In this document: positions 54,739-63,125 of the stretch, in pieces | Position numbering within the stretch: position 1 is the stretch's first letter | Layout of the letters: every line of letters starts with the position of its first letter | NCBI GenBank assembly: GCA_030063045.1 | Contig: JAQSEB010000023.1 | Span: forward strand, 4,154,001-4,218,000 | Length of the DNA stretch: 64,000 bases | Source of the DNA: Pratylenchus scribneri | Lineage: Eukaryota > Nematoda > Chromadorea > Rhabditida > Pratylenchidae | Direction: 5' to 3' | Notes under the pieces: model-generated | What the model saw: only the letters and a program-made list of their open reading frames with translations | Told to the model about the DNA's origin: nothing | Databases searched by the model: none | Translations under genes and position numbers: made by a program

Positions 54739-54742
54739 AATG
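54739..54742. repeat. Target-site duplication, left copy (aatg)
   Basis: The bases aatg directly outside the left LTR are repeated as aatg at 62880..62883 directly outside the right LTR. A 4-bp duplication is the size expected for several LTR-retroelement integrases. Four bases could match by chance, so this supports but does not prove the element ends. Confidence 0.6.
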
Positions 54743-55126
54743 AGTGAGGGAGGTGTGATGGGCCGAGGAGTCACCGTTGATGGATCGAATTTGGGGGAAT
54801 GGAAAAGGGAGAATTGGGGAAAGGGAGAAGCGACGAACGGCACAAAGACATCGAAGACTTGACTTTGGAGTCGAATGAGAATCAGGCCAAATATTCCCGC
54901 CCAAAGTGTACAAGTTCAATTAGAATAAATTCATTTATTGTGCTCATTGAAATGTCATAAAATGGAAATGATGAACGGTCGCTCCCCCCAAGGAGAAGAG
55001 CTCAAGCCTTTAAATAGCATAGTGATGATGGGGAATGGGGGTGTGTCTTTATAAATATCAATCACAAATCACAGAAAATAAATAAATATTTAAATAATTA
55101 AACCAGTGAAAAGCGAGACTCTTACA
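54743..55126 (-). repeat. 3' LTR (element orientation), 384 bp
   Basis: Direct copy of 62496..62879; by eye the only difference is a C/T at the cttga[c/t]tttgg position. In element orientation it begins TGTAAGAGTC and ends CCCTCACT. It contains a TTTATAAAGACAC-like TATA region and, in element orientation, AATAAA-like signals. Confidence 0.95.
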
Positions 55127-55140
55127 CCTCCCCCCTTTCC
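55127..55140 (-). other. Polypurine tract of the LTR element
   Basis: In element orientation GGAAAGGGGGGAGG lies directly against the first base of the 3' LTR (TGTAAG). This is the expected place and composition for the plus-strand primer of reverse transcription. Confidence 0.85.
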
Positions 55141-55447
55141 AAAACATCGTCCCCGATGGACTTTTTATTTTTTTTTTAATTCCATTTATTTATTCAAATA
55201 TGCTTTATTGTTTTAAAATGGTCAAATAATTTAATTTCAATATTCGCTCGAAAGCGATGGTCTCCTCTGATGAAATGTAGGTTCGCCTGCCCATACACTT
55301 TCAGCTGGAGTAAATTTAATAATTATATATTCTGCTCGAAAGCACTTCAAGGAGAATTTTGGAAACAAACATATTTGAATACTCAATTTTGACTAAAAAT
55401 TACTATTTTTGACTAGAATTTCCCCTCAAAAAAATTAATCTCGCTCT

Positions 55448-56389
55448 TCATCGATGGCTTTGACAAAATTTAGCGATATGTCCAGTTTGTCCACATTTGA
55501 AGCAGGCTCCACTTCCTCTACTTCTGATTCTTCGTTGATGTTCATCAGCATTCTCCGCCCCTCCTGGCTGCCTGTATGGATGATTGCTTTGCATTGATGG
55601 ACCAGCAGCAGGCCAAATTTGCCCCTGAGGATGAAATTGTTGAGGAGGCGGTGGTGGCGGTGGAGCAGCCAACTGAAATTGGGATTGGGTTGGGGGAAGC
55701 CTTGGCCAATTTTGCATGTCTCCTCCTGGACCAAAATTTGGTTGAGGTGCCATTGGTGGTGGTGGTGCCATTTGCCAATTTTGATTGTAGAAGACTCGTG
55801 GAGTGGGAAATTGGGGATGGGAAACTTGCCTTTGAGGTGCCATTCGTTGGTAAAATTCCAACGACATTGCTGACATGCCATTGGGACCAACCAGCCGACC
55901 ATTCCTGTAGCTGCTCATTGGATGGCCCATCAAATCAACATAATCCGGTCCCACTACCTCCGTCAAAGTCATCGCCTCCTTAATTATTTTTTTCCAAATT
56001 CCCTCTTCACTCCCTAAAAGGACCAAATCTCCAATAACAATAAGTCCCTCCTTTGCACGAGAAATGGCCACATTGACCCGCTCTGGGTCATTCCAGAATT
56101 TACCTCCACCTTTGCCATTTTCCCCGGCACAGGTCGTGACCACTAAAACAATATCGGCTTCATGGCCTTGGCACTCATCCGAAGTGGTTACCAAAACTTT
56201 TTCAAACCCACCCCTTTTACATTCCCTTCCTAATTCCGAGGCTTGAGCCGAATAAAGACACACAATTCTTACAGATTTATTGTTCGAAAGGGCCGGGATT
56301 AAAAGGCTCAAAAGCTGCATGGTCATCCAAGTTTGTCCATTATTGACCATTGAAAAAGAGGTTTCTTCTTTTTGTGATTCCCCCGACAT
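55448..56389 (-). CDS. Helicase C-terminal part (motifs V and VI) with Pro-rich linker and CCHC zinc knuckle
   Basis: A 313-codon open frame, shifted by one base relative to the upstream helicase frame; the two overlap at 56340..56389 around a run of five G. Residues 70-80 hold helicase motif V (ECQGHEADIV) and residues 103-121 motif VI (ERVNVAISRAKEGLIVIGD), the end of the RecA2 domain. After that comes a linker rich in Pro, Gln, Met and Asn, then a perfect retroviral-type zinc knuckle C-x2-C-x4-H-x4-C (CFKCGQTGHIAKFC, residues 296-309) and the stop. A Gag-type knuckle at the end of a UPF1-like helicase is unusual and could tether the helicase to the element RNA. Whether the two frames are joined by programmed frameshifting or separated by a mutation or sequencing indel cannot be told here. 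Confidence 0.85.
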   Translation of the reverse strand: MSGESQKEETSFSMVNNGQTWMTMQLLSLLIPALSNNKSVRIVCLYSAQASELGRECKRGGFEKVLVTTSDECQGHEADIVLVVTTCAGENGKGGGKFWNDPERVNVAISRAKEGLIVIGDLVLLGSEEGIWKKIIKEAMTLTEVVGPDYVDLMGHPMSSYRNGRLVGPNGMSAMSLEFYQRMAPQRQVSHPQFPTPRVFYNQNWQMAPPPPMAPQPNFGPGGDMQNWPRLPPTQSQFQLAAPPPPPPPQQFHPQGQIWPAAGPSMQSNHPYRQPGGAENADEHQRRIRSRGSGACFKCGQTGHIAKFCQSHR

Positions 56390-58814
56390 ATGAATAAAAA
56401 TTAAGAGGGGATTCTGCCATTGGCAATTTTATATTGGTCAATCCAGTCAATCCATTTCTTTGAGCTGGTTCTAAACCTGCTTCTAATACTTGATTTGGGC
56501 GGTAAGCGCCCGCTTCTACTATTTTGACAATGTGTGGATGAGATCGGAAACTGGTTGTTAAAAGCGTGTGGTCCACCCCTACACTGGCTAATAAATTATA
56601 GATAATTGTGTCGAGTCCTTTGTCTTCTCTGACGGCCTCCGGAATACTCTGCATGTTTACCTTTAATTGTTTTGGGTCCCTGGTTATTAACACCTTTTTA
56701 AGAAAATTAAATTTGGAAATGATTGCTATGGTCTGAGAGAATGGAACCTGTCCGGCTTCATCTATTATTAATTGGGTTGCTCCCCCAAAGAGGTTACCCA
56801 GCTGTTCGGCAAACCCTAAAGTTGCAAAGAATATCCTTCTTTTTTCAAACTCGGCCAATAAAGCGGCCATTTTTCCCTCCTCTGCTTGTTTGGGATTGGA
56901 CTTGCACAAGTCCACATATTTTTTTACCTTTTTCTGTTCTTTCCTACCCATTTTATTTAAAATTTCCGGCACGCTAATCGCGCTGGCTAGGCAATGTTGG
57001 GATATTTTTGAAATATGTTCCGCATAGCGGCTCTTCCCATTTCCACTAAATAAGGCCAACATTTTTATATTTAATCCTTCAATTTTTAACGCTTCCTCCA
57101 TTTCTTCCACCATTTTGACCACGGCTATGTTTAAGGGTGCTAACCCTACAGCATTTTCATCATTTTTCAAAATTGCCGCCATTATGGATACGGCGGTTAG
57201 GGTTTTACCCGTTCCCGGTGGTGAATTCATAAACACCGCTCTGGGTATTGGGTCCATCATTAATTGGGCAGTCTTTACTTGCTCTCCTTTAAGTCTTTCT
57301 AATGCTTTATACTGGATTGGATGCTCGAGAGCAATGGGAAGAGATTTACCTCCCCTACCCAATAAAATATTTATTATTCTTCCTAATGCCGATGGGCATT
57401 TTTCGGCAATTTCTGAGAAATGGTTTTGGCCAAATAAATCAATTCTTTTCTTTAGTGCCATCGTGGACCCAATTGGATAAAGTTCTACATCAAAACCGTT
57501 TCTAATTGCTTCCCAATCCGGCTCTACATCGTAGTTCCTGGCTTCTTGTATGCTCAGGACCACTGTTCCAACCACCAAAAACCCATTATCTACTAATCTT
57601 CTTTCAATAGCTTTGAGGAAACCTACTCCACAAAATTTTACATCACCTGGAAGTTTGGCGTGAATGGCAACATCCTCTTCCCAGATGTCGCAGAAATTTA
57701 CTAATTGTGTTTTCGATTCCAAAAAGTATTCAAATTTGAAATTACAAATCTTATCATTCGAAAATATTGGAATTGGCCGAACTATTATGGTAAATTTGTC
57801 TATTAAATCTTGCACAGCATGAAGTTGAGTGGCTATTGAAGCGGAAATCACTAATTCACCGAATTGAATGTCTTCTTTTGTTTGATTTTGCCTGAATGGA
57901 AACACGAATTTTTGTGCCACTTCCTCAACCCCTACAATCACCCATGGATTATGGGCTCTTTTTTCATTGCCTACATAAAAGGGTGTTTTTTCGGGCAATA
58001 CATAGCTAACACCCACTTTCCAATCAGAAGGCCTTGTGATTTGGGTGGCCAAAACATTTACAATATTTCCTATTTTCAGTCTATTTTCATTTTCTACAAA
58101 TAATTGCCTTTTATAGGCTCTTGCGAAAAAGTCCAATGGAGGTGTTGACAAAACTAATTGTTTAAAGTTTTTGGTTTTTGAGTCCCGATTTATATCTGCA
58201 ATAATGGCTACAAATTTCTGAGGTTTTGGCTTAAAATAATCAGCAATTACGGTAGCATTTCCCTGGGCATTAATGTTACCCAAATGGATCCAAGGATGCT
58301 CACCTGGTCGGCATTTGCTTTGATCACAATGAAGAGACAAATTTTTATATTTTCCCCATTCAAAACTTTTAATTTGCACATAATCGCCTATTTGGGGATT
58401 TTCTTTTACCCCTAAATTCTCCAACATTTTGTCCTCCAAACTTAAAAAGTAGGGCCAATCAAAGGGAAAACCATGGGTTTTAACAAGGACAATCTTATCA
58501 CTCCTTGTTGTTTGGGAGACCATGTATTCCACTGGATCATCCTTAGAGGGTTTTTTCGTGATTGATGGCTCGAGAGCCGAGGGATTATTTTCATATTCCC
58601 CTAATTCATCCACCTCATCCATTTCCATTTCTGCATCGTCCATTTGTTCATCCTCCAATTGTTCATCCGCCAACGGCATTTCCTCCACATTTTCCACTGA
58701 CAAAGTCGCCAATTCATTGGGCAATTGGTGTGCACTTGGAGCAGCCATTTCCGAAGTCGTTCCTGTCTCCTCCTGTCCAAATTGATCCCGGAGTTCCATC
58801 AAGATCTCTCCCAT
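56340..58814 (-). CDS. UPF1/MOV10-like superfamily 1 helicase, N-terminal and RecA1 part, 824 codons
   Basis: One uninterrupted 824-codon frame, intronless in a genome where neighbouring genes are cut every 100-350 bp. Residues 20-100 are acidic and disordered; 105-500 form a large N-terminal region of unknown fold; then SF1 motifs: Walker A PPGTGKT (532-538), motif Ia LAPLNIAV, motif II DEAGQ (685-689), motif III RDPKQL (712-717), motif IV-type SFRSHP (755-760). Motif III has Arg in place of the usual Gly before Asp. The order and the DEAGQ/SFRSHP wording place it in the UPF1-like group that includes MOV10 and nematode ERI-6/7 type proteins, which act on RNA and in small-RNA pathways. The ATG at 58812..58814 overlaps the end of the envelope-like ORF by 16 bases. 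Motifs V and VI are in the next frame downstream. Confidence 0.9.
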   Translation of the reverse strand: MGEILMELRDQFGQEETGTTSEMAAPSAHQLPNELATLSVENVEEMPLADEQLEDEQMDDAEMEMDEVDELGEYENNPSALEPSITKKPSKDDPVEYMVSQTTRSDKIVLVKTHGFPFDWPYFLSLEDKMLENLGVKENPQIGDYVQIKSFEWGKYKNLSLHCDQSKCRPGEHPWIHLGNINAQGNATVIADYFKPKPQKFVAIIADINRDSKTKNFKQLVLSTPPLDFFARAYKRQLFVENENRLKIGNIVNVLATQITRPSDWKVGVSYVLPEKTPFYVGNEKRAHNPWVIVGVEEVAQKFVFPFRQNQTKEDIQFGELVISASIATQLHAVQDLIDKFTIIVRPIPIFSNDKICNFKFEYFLESKTQLVNFCDIWEEDVAIHAKLPGDVKFCGVGFLKAIERRLVDNGFLVVGTVVLSIQEARNYDVEPDWEAIRNGFDVELYPIGSTMALKKRIDLFGQNHFSEIAEKCPSALGRIINILLGRGGKSLPIALEHPIQYKALERLKGEQVKTAQLMMDPIPRAVFMNSPPGTGKTLTAVSIMAAILKNDENAVGLAPLNIAVVKMVEEMEEALKIEGLNIKMLALFSGNGKSRYAEHISKISQHCLASAISVPEILNKMGRKEQKKVKKYVDLCKSNPKQAEEGKMAALLAEFEKRRIFFATLGFAEQLGNLFGGATQLIIDEAGQVPFSQTIAIISKFNFLKKVLITRDPKQLKVNMQSIPEAVREDKGLDTIIYNLLASVGVDHTLLTTSFRSHPHIVKIVEAGAYRPNQVLEAGLEPAQRNGLTGLTNIKLPMAESPLNFYSYVGGITKRRNLFFNGQ

Positions 58815-60196
58815 CTTGTTGTTTCCAAGCGGTCCAAAATTGCCTGATTCATTGAAAATGAGAGCATTTCCCCTAATTCGGTGTCCAAATATATCAATTG
58901 GGCTGCTAATTGTGAAGAAGTAACCAACGAGTCAATCCCCCTTCTTGACCTTTTTCTCCTATTTTGCCTAGGCTTATTATTCAAATTTTCAACAGCAAAG
59001 CCTTGATCCGAAAGGATCAATTCATTTCCACAATTATTAACTTTTGAGGAGTTTGACGAAAATGTTAACATAAACCTTTTTTCATCTGAGAGCCAGGCAG
59101 TTCCCAACATTCTGCCTTTCCAAATTCCAATTTGCCTAAATTCACAGTTTTTCACTCCATCCGTTTTCCATTGAATCAAAGTATTGTCTTCAAGCCGACA
59201 GCTTCCTTCTTCAAATTTGCATTGGCCAGTTTCGCCCAAATGACTGTGAATGGCGGGATTCCCAAATTTTGTCATAATTTTGGTTTTGAAAAGATAGCAA
59301 TTATCACTCTTTTCCTTTTTCCAATTAAAAGTACCAATAAGCCAACGCCTGGGGGAACGATCAATCTCCAAATCTGTATGGAAAAGACCAGACTCATTTA
59401 TTAATTTGCCTAGAGAACACTCTCCTTCATTTATCATTTGCTGACATTCATTGTGGTTGATTGGCAAATTTTCAGGGTCCAAACATTGTTCAACTGGGAC
59501 CCCACTTAAAGCAGTATATTTCCTTAAGCCTTTCCTAACTTTCCTACATGCCCAAGCATCCATTTCACGTTCAAATATATTCGGGGTGTAAAGCACGAGT
59601 GCTTCTGGTATTGGAGAATGAGTATAATTAAGATTAATTTTTGAACAATTTGCAATTTCTGGCAACTTCCAAACCGTCCCTTCTTTCTGAGTTTGGCAAA
59701 TCATTGGGTTGTTAGGTAAGCCAAATGCTGCTGAGCAAGGGGTTAAGCCAAATAAGAAAATCATTATTAAAAGCAAATGATTGGCTAAAGTCAATTTTGG
59801 ACCAATTCCAGAACTTTCCCAATTTGAAGTCTTCTTCGGAGCTTCATTTTTTACCTTTTCAATTTCCAACTTGAGTGTATTTTTTTTCACATTTCGCCTA
59901 ATCATTTTATCATCATTTTCAACCTTACTAATTGCATTCATCGTTCCTGTCCGGTTATTCGGGATTTCTTGACTCGAAAGTCGGTTATTTTGCAAGCTCA
60001 TATTCGCTATTGCTTTCACCAATTCATTGGCATCAATATTTAGTGATGTTCCGGGAGGATTTTGTAAACTATTTAAAGGTGCCGTGGAATAATTATCCTG
60101 TCTTTGATATTGGTTTCCAGATTGATTTCCTCCATCAAATTCCTTTTTCCTTTGGAAGCAATTCATTGCTGTGTGGCCTTCCCACAAAAAGTACAA
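58799..60196 (-). CDS. Envelope-like glycoprotein, surface part only, preceded by Gag tail
   Basis: A 465-codon frame overlapping the end of gag by 34 bases. The first 20 or so residues contain the second half of the Gag zinc knuckle (GHTAMNC) and there is a polar Gln/Asn-rich linker to about 130. A hydrophobic signal-like segment at 137-157 (LLLIMIFLFGLTPCSA) starts a Cys-rich ectodomain with several N-glycosylation sites (NCS, NYT, NES, NSS). A furin-type polybasic site lies at 413-419 (RRKRSRR). Only 46 residues follow, with no membrane span, so the fusion/anchor subunit is missing. I cannot assign the glycoprotein class. The frame joins gag directly to envelope, where pol would normally lie between them. 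Confidence 0.75.
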   Translation of the reverse strand: MYFLWEGHTAMNCFQRKKEFDGGNQSGNQYQRQDNYSTAPLNSLQNPPGTSLNIDANELVKAIANMSLQNNRLSSQEIPNNRTGTMNAISKVENDDKMIRRNVKKNTLKLEIEKVKNEAPKKTSNWESSGIGPKLTLANHLLLIMIFLFGLTPCSAAFGLPNNPMICQTQKEGTVWKLPEIANCSKINLNYTHSPIPEALVLYTPNIFEREMDAWACRKVRKGLRKYTALSGVPVEQCLDPENLPINHNECQQMINEGECSLGKLINESGLFHTDLEIDRSPRRWLIGTFNWKKEKSDNCYLFKTKIMTKFGNPAIHSHLGETGQCKFEEGSCRLEDNTLIQWKTDGVKNCEFRQIGIWKGRMLGTAWLSDEKRFMLTFSSNSSKVNNCGNELILSDQGFAVENLNNKPRQNRRKRSRRGIDSLVTSSQLAAQLIYLDTELGEMLSFSMNQAILDRLETTRWERS

Positions 60197-60771
60197 TTTG
60201 GTCTATTTGACCAATTTCGATCATTAATCCGTCTCTGGTTTTGCGGACGATTAAATGGTCTCGATTGGTTCCTATTTCTATTTTTCCAATTGGTGCCTTT
60301 GGAATTATTCCTAACCGGGTTGAATCTCACCGCTCTTTTCAACTCATTCTGGTATCGACCTTGGGGATAATCAGAAGGAGGGGGAGTTTGGGCTCTATAT
60401 GAGGAACTTGATTGTTGGTAGTAATTGCTTGCTTCCGGCACATTATTTTGGGTGTTAATGGCCTGAACTGCCTGTGGAATTATGCCTAGATTCCCTTTTT
60501 CAGAGTCCAAGAGGGCTTCCAATTCCTCAGCTTGTGCCATAACCATATCAAGATTTTTGGTTTTTGAAAGCCCAACCAACTTTATTAAAAACCCGATATT
60601 CGGCCTTATTCTTTCCAAGAGTTCTTCGCAGATTTTCTCCTTCATTTGGGGTTCATTCATGGTGGAGTTAACTATTTCAACCAGAGGACTTAATCTTTGA
60701 AGGAATTGGGAAACAGTTTCGCCCTCTTTTTGTTTGCACATTCCCAGTGTTCTTTTTGCTAGTTCCCTTTT
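60163..60771 (-). pseudogene. gag, C-terminal capsid and nucleocapsid part
   Basis: Continues in the same frame directly after the TAG at 60774..60772. It contains the capsid C-terminal part with a major-homology-like stretch (EGETVSQFLQRLSPLVE) and a Gln/Asn/Arg-rich nucleocapsid with RNRNQSRPFNRPQNQRR, then the first half of a zinc knuckle (NCTFCG) before a stop. The rest of the knuckle (GHTAMNC) is in the overlapping frame of the envelope-like ORF. The spacing across the two frames would be C-x2-C-x3-H-x4-C, one residue short of standard, which suggests a small deletion. Confidence 0.8.
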
Positions 60772-61488
60772 CTAGGGAGAATCGAGCTTTTCCCGCAATG
60801 CTTTTATCGCATTTTTTACTGTGTTCAATTGGGCTTGAGGGAATCCCTTAAAAAGCTTACGAGGAACATCAACCAGTGCCAATTTTAATCTAGCAACTTT
60901 TTCTTCCTCATCCCAATTTCTGCCCATGGCATCCACATAATCTACAAACTTTTCAACCCATTTATCAAATGCAATAACAGATTCTTCCCCAAACGGCTCC
61001 AAATTGCCGGTTTTGGCAGTCAAAGAAAAGAGACCAAAAGCATCCATTCCATCGTCAATAAAATTGTCTTCATTATTGGTTCGGTTATGATTTTCGGGAT
61101 TTTCCTCCTCGAAAGGGGGTGGTTGATTATGATTTCCCATATTTTCCATATTATTAAAATCAATCATATTCCTTCGGGGATTTCCTTGAGTTCTAACTTT
61201 CCATTGGGTTAGTTCATCAACCCTCTCCCCTAATTGGTTCATTTGGATTTGAAGAGTTTCGATGTTCATATTGGTGTCCTTAGCTATTTTGTTGATTTGA
61301 TCAGCATTCTGGAAAACCCATTTTTTGAGTTGCCTATTGCAACGATTTACACCATCTTCCAATCTTCCAACATCAAGATATGCTCTTTCTACATCAACCA
61401 ATTTTAGACCACTTTTTCCAAGCCAAAAATTTCGATCAATTGCAACTATTTGAAGATCATTTTGAAGATCGTCTTCTATTCTGGATTG
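60772..61488 (-). pseudogene. gag, N-terminal matrix/capsid part, ends at in-frame TAG
   Basis: Open frame from after a stop at 61489..61491 down to TAG at 60774..60772. It begins with a helical part, has a coiled coil (INKIAKDTNMNIETLQIQMN), an Asn/Pro/Glu-rich linker, and the N-terminal capsid helices of LTR-element Gag (FDKWVEKFVDYVDAMGRNW, LALVDVPRKLFKGFP). There is no good ATG near the start of the frame, so translation may begin at an internal Met or a spliced leader. The TAG falls inside the capsid, which is not where retroelements normally use readthrough, so a nonsense mutation is most likely. Confidence 0.8.
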
Positions 61489-61491
61489 TTA

Positions 61492-62495
61492 GCTCGAAAG
61501 CCAATAAAAAGATTTGTCCACCTCTTTTCTGCTCCGAGGTTGAAGCACCACAACAGCCAAAAAGGGGTGAAGACAGGCAATGAACAATGAACGCTGTTTT
61601 GTTTGTTTGGTTGTACGATTTGAGAATTGAGTTTGTAAAATTTGAAGCTTAAAAAAATGAAAAATTATTGTACAATTTGGTGCCCCAACAATAAATGGAA
61701 AATGATGGGAAATGGGCAAAAGTAAGATAAAAATGCCTAGGGGAGGAAGGTTGAATCAGCCGCCGACAAATGAAAATGAAGAAAATGTGTGAAAGCCGTC
61801 GGGAATATAAAGCGGCGATCCGACGATCAAGAATGAAAGGGGCGTCGAGAATACGAAGGGCGGATGATTCCTCTTGACAGCATTTATTTTCCCATCCTTT
61901 TTACGATTTTATGTCCGATCATTCCTGGGAAGTCATTAGCCACTTAAGGATGGAGGAAACCTTTCCGTTTTCCCACCATTAATAGTTTTATTCCTCAGCC
62001 TATTAGATTTATCTTTGAAAACAATTTGGAATGTCGGGAAAATATTGGGTGGCTGAAATGGACTTTGTGGACTCTGTCCTTATCCTTTTTGCTTTTATTG
62101 GAATTGAAATGAAAAGAAATTGCCTAACTCTGAACTTTTGAAATGAATTGGATTTGGGCCTATCTTTGGGAAAAATAATTTTAAATTGGTCCACTTTGGT
62201 TTATTCATGAATCGTTATGAATCTCTTTTTTTTGAGTGATTGATTTGAAATGAATTTCCTCTCAGGCAATTATTTTGACAAAATTTTACTCAATGTTTCT
62301 GCAATCATTGGGCTTGATTTTATTCAATTAAGCGCTATTTATTCAAAAATTTTGGATCCGAGATTGTGTCCCTCGAAAGGAACGGAAGCTTCCTGACAAT
62401 GATAAGCCGGCATTTTATTTTACAATCCCCAAAAACTCATCCTTTCCATTGTATTTCGGCTGCCACTTCTGGAGTAGCAACCATTCGGTGCTACC
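61492..62495 (-). other. Leader of the LTR element with primer-binding-site candidate
   Basis: About 1 kb between the 5' LTR and gag. Directly after the LTR, in element orientation, the sequence runs TGGTAGCACCGAATGG (the T is the last LTR base), which has the TGG start expected of a tRNA primer-binding site; I could not name the tRNA. The rest holds no coding evidence and probably includes packaging signals and a splice donor for the downstream ORFs. No pol-like translation was found in any frame. Confidence 0.6.
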
Positions 62496-62879
62496 AGTGA
62501 GGGAGGTGTGATGGGCCGAGGAGTCACCGTTGATGGATCGAATTTGGGGGAATGGAAAAGGGAGAATTGGGGAAAGGGAGAAGCGACGAACGGCACAAAG
62601 ACATCGAAGACTTGATTTTGGAGTCGAATGAGAATCAGGCCAAATATTCCCGCCCAAAGTGTACAAGTTCAATTAGAATAAATTCATTTATTGTGCTCAT
62701 TGAAATGTCATAAAATGGAAATGATGAACGGTCGCTCCCCCCAAGGAGAAGAGCTCAAGCCTTTAAATAGCATAGTGATGATGGGGAATGGGGGTGTGTC
62801 TTTATAAATATCAATCACAAATCACAGAAAATAAATAAATATTTAAATAATTAAACCAGTGAAAAGCGAGACTCTTACA
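62496..62879 (-). repeat. 5' LTR (element orientation), 384 bp
   Basis: Direct repeat of 54743..55126, same length, one difference seen. In element orientation it starts TGTAAGAGTC and should carry the promoter of the element. Confidence 0.95.
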
Positions 62880-62984
62880 AATGTCATAATCTTTTTCTTT
62901 CTTTTTACTCTCTAATTTTACCATTCACACTTTTTTTGGAATGGATGAATGAATGGATTTGATCAAAAATTTGGCGCATAGTCA

Positions 62985-63125
62985 AAATACCAAATGTTCA
63001 AAATCCCAAATGTTCAAAATCCCAAATCACCTTAAAACGCTCAAAATCCCAAATCAGCTAAAAACGCTCAAAATACCAAATGCTCAAAATCCCAAATCAC
63101 CTAAAAACGTTCAAAATCCCAAATT
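62985..63125 (+). repeat. Short imperfect tandem repeat
   Basis: Repeats of tcaaaatcccaaat-type units, some joined by cacctaaaaacgc, over about 140 bp. The units are 14-26 bp and imperfect. An open frame across it is just the repeat translated. It lies between the LTR element and the FLYWCH gene. Confidence 0.8.

Follow-up and report, generated by a model that had tools for sequence, protein, structure and literature searches.

Giant Gypsy elements of planarians, named Burro, have been called the first case in which an envelope gene (env) lies in frame between gag and pol (PMC6431247). In this paper we describe an element with long terminal repeats (LTRs) from the nematode Pratylenchus scribneri, which occupies the minus strand from 62879 to 54743 of a stretch of 64,000 nucleotides (contig JAQSEB010000023.1; hereafter the window), and we compare it with its relatives in the same genome. 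The window element is very probably a recent insertion, a copy with an internal deletion and broken frames, from a clade of giant Ty3-type LTR elements that have a UPF1-like helicase gene; of its anatomy and of its membership of that clade we are nearly certain.

The fuller nematode elements resemble Burro in being giant and of the Ty3/Gypsy type, in placing env in frame between gag and the protease and reverse transcriptase (RT), and in carrying accessory domains (PMC6431247). Burro elements exceed 30 kb, however, whereas the nematode elements measure 16-21 kb and have a UPF1-like helicase in an open reading frame (ORF) of its own after the integrase. The accessory domains named in the accessible text on Burro include AIR1, Smc, MATH, BIR, ankyrin, BCL2, SUMO-like, dUTPase and midasin-like domains, and that text names no helicase (PMC6431247).

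Helicases of superfamily 1 (SF1) are carried by insect long interspersed nuclear elements (LINEs) and by two Ty1/Copia fusions, and are there of the type found in plus-strand RNA viruses (PMC5563155, PMC6338049). The available portions of these reports describe a full set of SF1 motifs, as in the nematode elements, and a proposed role in the suppression of silencing. The insect helicases, however, are viral in type and sit mostly in LINEs, whereas that of the nematode elements resembles UPF1 (AAA_11/AAA_12), occupies an ORF of its own, and accompanies a Ty3-type clade almost constantly.

Another nematode element of the Ty3 type, Cer1 of C. elegans, also has an extra protein: CERV, which is made from a spliced mRNA and needed for export of the genomic RNA, and which the accessible parts of the reports describe as a novel protein, not as a helicase (PMC3315495, PMC10309623). 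LTR elements of bdelloid rotifers likewise have an enzyme in the third-ORF position, which in the accessible text is a GDSL esterase or a DEDDy exonuclease rather than a helicase (PMC5408684). A search of the open-licence literature found no UPF1-type helicase as a standing gene of LTR elements; subscription papers, preprint servers and element databases lay outside that search.

Layout of the fuller elements

The preliminary description of this locus proposed an LTR family that carries a helicase in place of pol. That proposal does not hold, since the relatives of the window element carry both. A gag search of the genome gave 65 matches, some of them in open frames of more than 2,000 amino acids (aa), and ten of the gag places were examined as 10 kb pieces. 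Gag is followed by an env-like domain in four of the ten (L039-L042), and an aspartic protease, RT, RNase H, an integrase zinc domain and rve were found in L039, which is the C165 element, and in L040, which is the C10 element (two of four scanned). The order in both is protease, RT, RNase H, integrase. C10 holds gag, env, protease, RT and integrase within a single frame of 3,032 aa, so that env lies in frame between gag and pol as in Burro. The best match in the Protein Data Bank (PDB) to a profile of the C10 and C165 RTs is Ty3, with an E-value of 8e-89.

The helicase domains AAA_11 and AAA_12 are present in C23, C10 and C165, and in C23 the helicase is a separate ORF that starts 128 nt past the end of the polyprotein frame. 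The fuller members are arranged as LTR, gag, env, protease, RT, RNase H, integrase, UPF1-like SF1 helicase, LTR. Because this gene order is repeated inside LTR pairs at unlinked loci, the helicase belongs to the element, as the preliminary description had supposed. Its suggestion that further copies be sought had a divided outcome: helicase ORFs were found in related LTR elements (C23, C10, C165), and the LTRs of the window element themselves were found only as the pair in the window, in a search that scored its best candidates.

A search with the C23 LTR returned 11 matches, with pairs at C23, C16, C19, C181 and C216 and a single LTR at C1. C216 is a deleted copy with RT, integrase and an open helicase, and no gag or env match was found in the 4.75 kb from its 5' LTR to the helicase; at C41 the helicase is broken and no RT match was found. 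In C10, about 5.6 kb separate the polyprotein frame from the helicase piece (C10:706923-712500, L047), and the three plus-strand ORFs scanned there (181-246 codons) have no Pfam match at E 0.01.

Identity and constancy of the helicase

A profile built from four element helicases, the first part of the window helicase among them, matches NAM7/UPF1 in the PDB at 1e-31 and then IGHMBP2. The element helicases have the AAA_11/AAA_12 core with motifs I-VI that defines UPF1-like SF1 helicases; for the helicase of C150 no AAA_11 match was found at E 0.01 or better. Wherever PF01443 (Viral_helicase1) matches, AAA_12 far outscores it, and the helicase is not of the viral SF1 type. Walker A, DEAGQ or DESxQ, a GDKxQL-like motif, a YRSHP-like motif, motif V and motif VI can be recognised across the aligned copies, and the SF1 motifs are retained at helicase identities of about 25-30%; the window helicase deviates in motif III. 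UPF1 proper has an N-terminal CH zinc domain that binds UPF2. General Pfam scans, with no search dedicated to that domain, gave no match to it in the helicases of five relatives or in the window. A Foldseek search with the trimmed core of the C165 helicase also placed IGHMBP2 and UPF1 at the top (E about 1e-18), with TM-scores of 0.36-0.40 and an unreliable placing of the domains. A protein search with the 824-aa ORF of the window yielded 6,798 candidates, of which not one reached E 0.001, and a scan of viral contigs with the helicase alignment yielded 92 pattern stretches, none of which was confirmed as a relative.

It is important to ask whether the helicase might instead be a host gene without introns that merely happens to lie between LTRs, an outcome that the preliminary description itself had named as one that would overturn it. 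UPF1-like helicases are ordinary host genes, and exon-like splitting is seen in a number of the genome's other AAA_12 matches. The identical gene order within LTR pairs at several unlinked loci already contradicts chance flanking, however, and we find this explanation hardly credible. On a profile from five element helicases, moreover, the two parts of the window helicase reach 315 and 136 bits and the other element copies at least 568, far above pieces of five other AAA_12 loci, whose scores, 37 bits at most, are depressed by their shortness and by their splitting into exons. Thus, although host UPF1 and IGHMBP2 give the best profile and fold-search matches in the PDB, the element helicases differ from them in sitting inside LTRs and in forming a group of their own against the sampled loci. 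The preliminary description had also supposed the capture of a host helicase. We see no sign of a recent capture from the five sampled loci, none of which is close to the element helicases, in a comparison limited to those fragments.

How constantly, then, does the helicase accompany the clade? Querying the genome with env gave at least 91 matches (91 of 146 candidates were scored). At 12 of the 14 loci whose env match exceeds 200 bits (one of them the window), an AAA_12 match follows downstream on that strand, no more than 25 kb away. Of the remaining 77 env rows only two are helicase-paired, namely C38 and a second piece of the already counted C90 locus. This pairing used the 36 best of the 75 matches from a genome search with the AAA_12 family, and a helicase census built on that search is a lower bound. 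Gag often lies upstream of these matches on the same strand: it was found within 30 kb at 14 of 53 AAA_12 sites (53 of the 75 were entered), against an expectation of 0.004 per site, although C1:4716305, counted among the 14, is probably an exon of a host gene. The contrast between 12 of 14 among the best env loci and 2 of 77 among the weaker rows indicates, therefore, that the helicase marks the clade of the window element.

A second, more distant group of helicases scores 171-177 bits on the five-helicase profile; it lies beside an RT at C15 and beside an integrase at C23:3.92 Mb. The C15 RT is 47-52% identical to the other RTs compared. At C63, the third weaker AAA_12 locus examined, neither RT nor integrase was found in the 4 kb upstream. 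From its pairing with env in the clade of the window element, its conserved motifs, and the purifying selection and splice acceptors described below, we conclude that the helicase is an enduring gene of that Ty3-type clade.

The copy in the window

The features of the window element, and the extents of three fuller relatives, are collected in Table 1. The preliminary description was accurate in its LTRs, target-site duplication, primer-binding site (PBS) and polypurine tract, as well as in its SF1 helicase with motifs V and VI in the next frame; the two RecA halves of the helicase thus stand in different frames. Its gag was also sound, but what it called an envelope-like ORF comprises only the tail of gag and the N-terminal part of env, which has a furin-like site (RRKRSRR) near 58960. 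The C-terminal half of the env-like glycoprotein is absent from the window copy; in C165 that part weakly matches fusion glycoproteins of the Monjiviricetes (20.9 bits, under the Pfam cut-off).

Table 1. Positions of features in the window element and of three related elements elsewhere in the genome.
Feature	Position	Strand	Remarks
5' LTR (TGTAAG...CTCACT), 384 bp	62496..62879	-	direct repeat
3' LTR, 384 bp	54743..55126	-	direct repeat of 5' LTR
Target-site duplication CATT	62880..62883, other copy 54739-54742	.	flanks both element ends
PBS GGTAGCACCGAATGG	62481..62495	-	directly after 5' LTR
Polypurine tract GGAAAGGGGGGAGG	55127..55140	-	directly before 3' LTR
gag, one frame	60163..61401	-	in-frame TAG near 60774; frame break in CCHC knuckle near 60180
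gag tail and N-terminal part of env-like glycoprotein	58799..60196	-	hydrophobic segment, several Cys
SF1 helicase, first part, 824 codons	56340..58814	-	AAA_11; acidic N-terminus; SFRSHP
Walker A SPPGTGKT	57224-57201	-	first helicase part
DEAGQ	56762-56748	-	first helicase part
SF1 helicase, second part, next frame	55448..56389	-	AAA_12; motifs V and VI; C-terminal CCHC knuckle
Inferred deletion junction	58733..58810	-	env homology stops near 58806; helicase homology begins near 58733
C23 element	981099-997121		16.0 kb; identical 406 bp LTR pair; target-site duplication ATTA
C10 element	695826-717116		21.3 kb; identical 341 bp LTR pair; target-site duplication ATTA
C165 element	182569-202069		19.5 kb; identical 349 bp LTR pair; target-site duplication TTTC

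As the preliminary description had stated, no pol lies between the LTRs: the protease, RT and integrase of a single relative, C165, were used as probes and matched nothing in the window at E-values up to 1, and by these probes the window copy is not an autonomous LTR retrotransposon. Its two LTRs differ at 1 position, from which we conclude that the copy was inserted recently. When 358 of the 384 bases of the 3' LTR were compared with the genome (227 Mb, 276 contigs; best candidates only were scored), the two window LTRs alone were matched. The first 12 bases of the PBS recur exactly in 11 of 49 other loci compared, some of which overlap; the PBS is also found in C10, C90, C107 and C62, and these four loci have the LTR end CGCTCACT in common. 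Compared with C165, the window element is 39% identical in env and 36% in the helicase. We take the window copy to be a lineage of its own. It is one young copy, internally deleted, in which a stop interrupts gag and the frames of both gag and helicase are broken.

Because env homology ends close to where helicase homology begins (Table 1), a single internal deletion would account for the loss of the rest of env and of all of pol. We think it likely that one such deletion, perhaps by template switching, removed these parts, and that the copy was inserted with the enzymes of relatives, as the close likeness of its LTRs would imply. Since the relatives carry the helicase along with pol, the helicase most likely predates the loss of pol.

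The preliminary description drew another conclusion from the same features, namely that an LTR family acquired its helicase from the host, no longer has pol, and spreads non-autonomously with help from a complete relative. An element without pol, and pol-bearing relatives in the genome, are indeed what we find, and the LTRs, gag, helicase and recent insertion of the window copy would fit such a family, as would the helicase sequence retained in the deleted copies C216 and C41. Spread as a pol-less family, however, is improbable, given that only one LTR pair was found, the broken gag and helicase frames, and the relatives that already have the helicase alongside pol.

Several further observations concern the neighbourhood and the wider relatives of this element. 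Short AAATCCCAAATCACCTTAAAACGCTC-like repeats, with spacings of 16 and 27, lie just beyond the 5' LTR at 62976-63124. In six pieces (L033-L038, from C4, C48 twice, C121, C130 and C43) gag is 75-79% identical to that of the window over about 86 residues, and the window PBS occurs in four of the six; these 10 kb pieces contain a gag ORF and no pol-sized frame, and they are likely to be gag-only non-autonomous relatives. The 22-base SL1 leader has 227 exact copies in the genome, as against 0 for a reversed control, which marks the host as a nematode. One LTR family has the exact SL1 22-mer inside both LTRs (C41:274950-275600, L070, and C41:287550-288190, L071; 519 of 519 compared bases identical), and among the first 100 of the 227 SL1 places, SL1 pairs about 11.4-12.6 kb apart flank six further env loci with large open frames. 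SL1 in these LTRs is possibly trans-spliced genomic RNA that became fixed into the LTR. In a family with 3,697-aa frames (C41:285247, C65:185786, C11:243917 and others), one SL1/LTR is about 10 kb away from the env match and the second only 2-3 kb away; env in this family seems to stand at the C-terminal end of the polyprotein, unlike that of the helicase clade.

Selection, expression and possible role of the helicase

For the helicases of C23 and C19, the nonsynonymous rate (dN) is 0.0070 and the synonymous rate (dS) 0.098, so that dN/dS is 0.071; for C23 and C216 the ratio is 0.075, with dS about 0.1. As a yardstick, gag and early env give 0.125-0.131 when the C23 and C16 copies are compared with the C19 and C181 copies. 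Within those pairs, the ratio for C19/C181 is 0.67, based on few changes, and synonymous changes are absent from C23/C16. In the informative comparisons (dN/dS 0.07) the helicase is under purifying selection. As a separate observation, dS between C23:984338-996156 and C19 is 0.38 in gag/env and 0.10 in the helicase, a contrast that suggests mosaic elements formed by recombination.

Selection bears directly on the idea that the helicase is passive cargo without a role. No helicase lies near 75 of the 77 weaker env rows, which could be read in that sense, but a dN/dS of 0.07 between mobilised copies, and motifs conserved at such low identity, make this idea very improbable.

Five of seven helicase ORFs have a nematode splice acceptor of the TTTYAG type no more than 130 nt ahead of their first ATG, as against 19 of 404 control windows. 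The helicase would probably be made, we suggest, from a spliced or trans-spliced mRNA, like the late gene of a retrovirus.

A number of points weigh against the account given so far. In C165, gag-env, protease and RT-integrase are split over three open frames, with a break between env and protease, and that element is for this reason not intact. The polyprotein frame of C23 is 2,853 aa long, and the RT and integrase of its family were read in the deleted copy C216. The PBSs of C23 and C165 are one-base variants of that of the window, and C54 and C130, among the 14 best env loci, have no AAA_12 match within 25 kb. The AlphaFold model of the whole C165 helicase is unusable, with a predicted local distance difference test score (pLDDT) of 40, and that of its trimmed core is only moderate (pLDDT 64). 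The C19/C216 helicase comparison gives a dN/dS of 0.45 on very few changes, and the deeper helicase pairs are saturated for dN/dS. The helicase ORFs of C19 and C165 have no acceptor motif as defined, C19 having CTTTAG at the acceptor position, outside the defined motif, and C165 having none. The closest env match of the window copy is 41% identical, and the genome search found no close relative with pol, so that the deletion junction and its mechanism cannot be fixed. We do not put forward a spliced subgenomic RNA as the source of the window copy: in a comparison with four relatives, neither a donor nor an acceptor signature is seen where env meets the helicase.

As to function, we tentatively propose that the helicase acts on the RNA of the element itself, where it may shield or remodel a genomic RNA of 16-21 kb. 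Its target would be nematode RNA surveillance, either nonsense-mediated decay or small-RNA silencing of the UPF1/ZNFX-1/ERI-6/7 kind. Protection from surveillance is the role we favour, since the protein resembles UPF1, is not part of the polyprotein, and is fast-diverging yet under purifying selection. ERI-6/7, which belongs to the wider helicase family, works in a small-RNA pathway of nematodes, according to the accessible text of PMC6468775.

According to the main rival to this proposal, the helicase would instead help to reverse-transcribe or package a genome that is very long and structured. The size of the elements and the retained SF1 motifs would suit such a role, as would the CCHC knuckle at the C-terminus of the window helicase, which in C165 stands just beyond the helicase frame. 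Nevertheless we consider it rather unlikely, since the C23 helicase is an ORF separate from the polyprotein, and since the helicase diverges much faster than RT (32% versus 76% identity between C165 and C10), as host-facing genes often do.

The proposal of protection from surveillance can be extended to the clade as a whole, in a form that we regard as possible but somewhat doubtful. In this clade of giant env-bearing Ty3-type elements, the UPF1-type helicase would be a true viral gene, a fast-evolving, spliced late product that defeats RNA surveillance or small-RNA silencing in an arms race with the host; the group at C15 and C23:3.92 Mb would then reflect an older origin or a second gain.

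The nematode elements add a second animal phylum to the layout with env between gag and pol, of which Burro was described as the first case (PMC6431247). They also offer a testable case of a retroelement that may use its host's own class of RNA-surveillance enzyme. Helicases of the UPF1, MOV10 and ZNFX-1 type are host factors that act on retroelement RNA. For a mobile clade that keeps a helicase of its own under selection, such an enzyme would be a natural counter-tool against the host.

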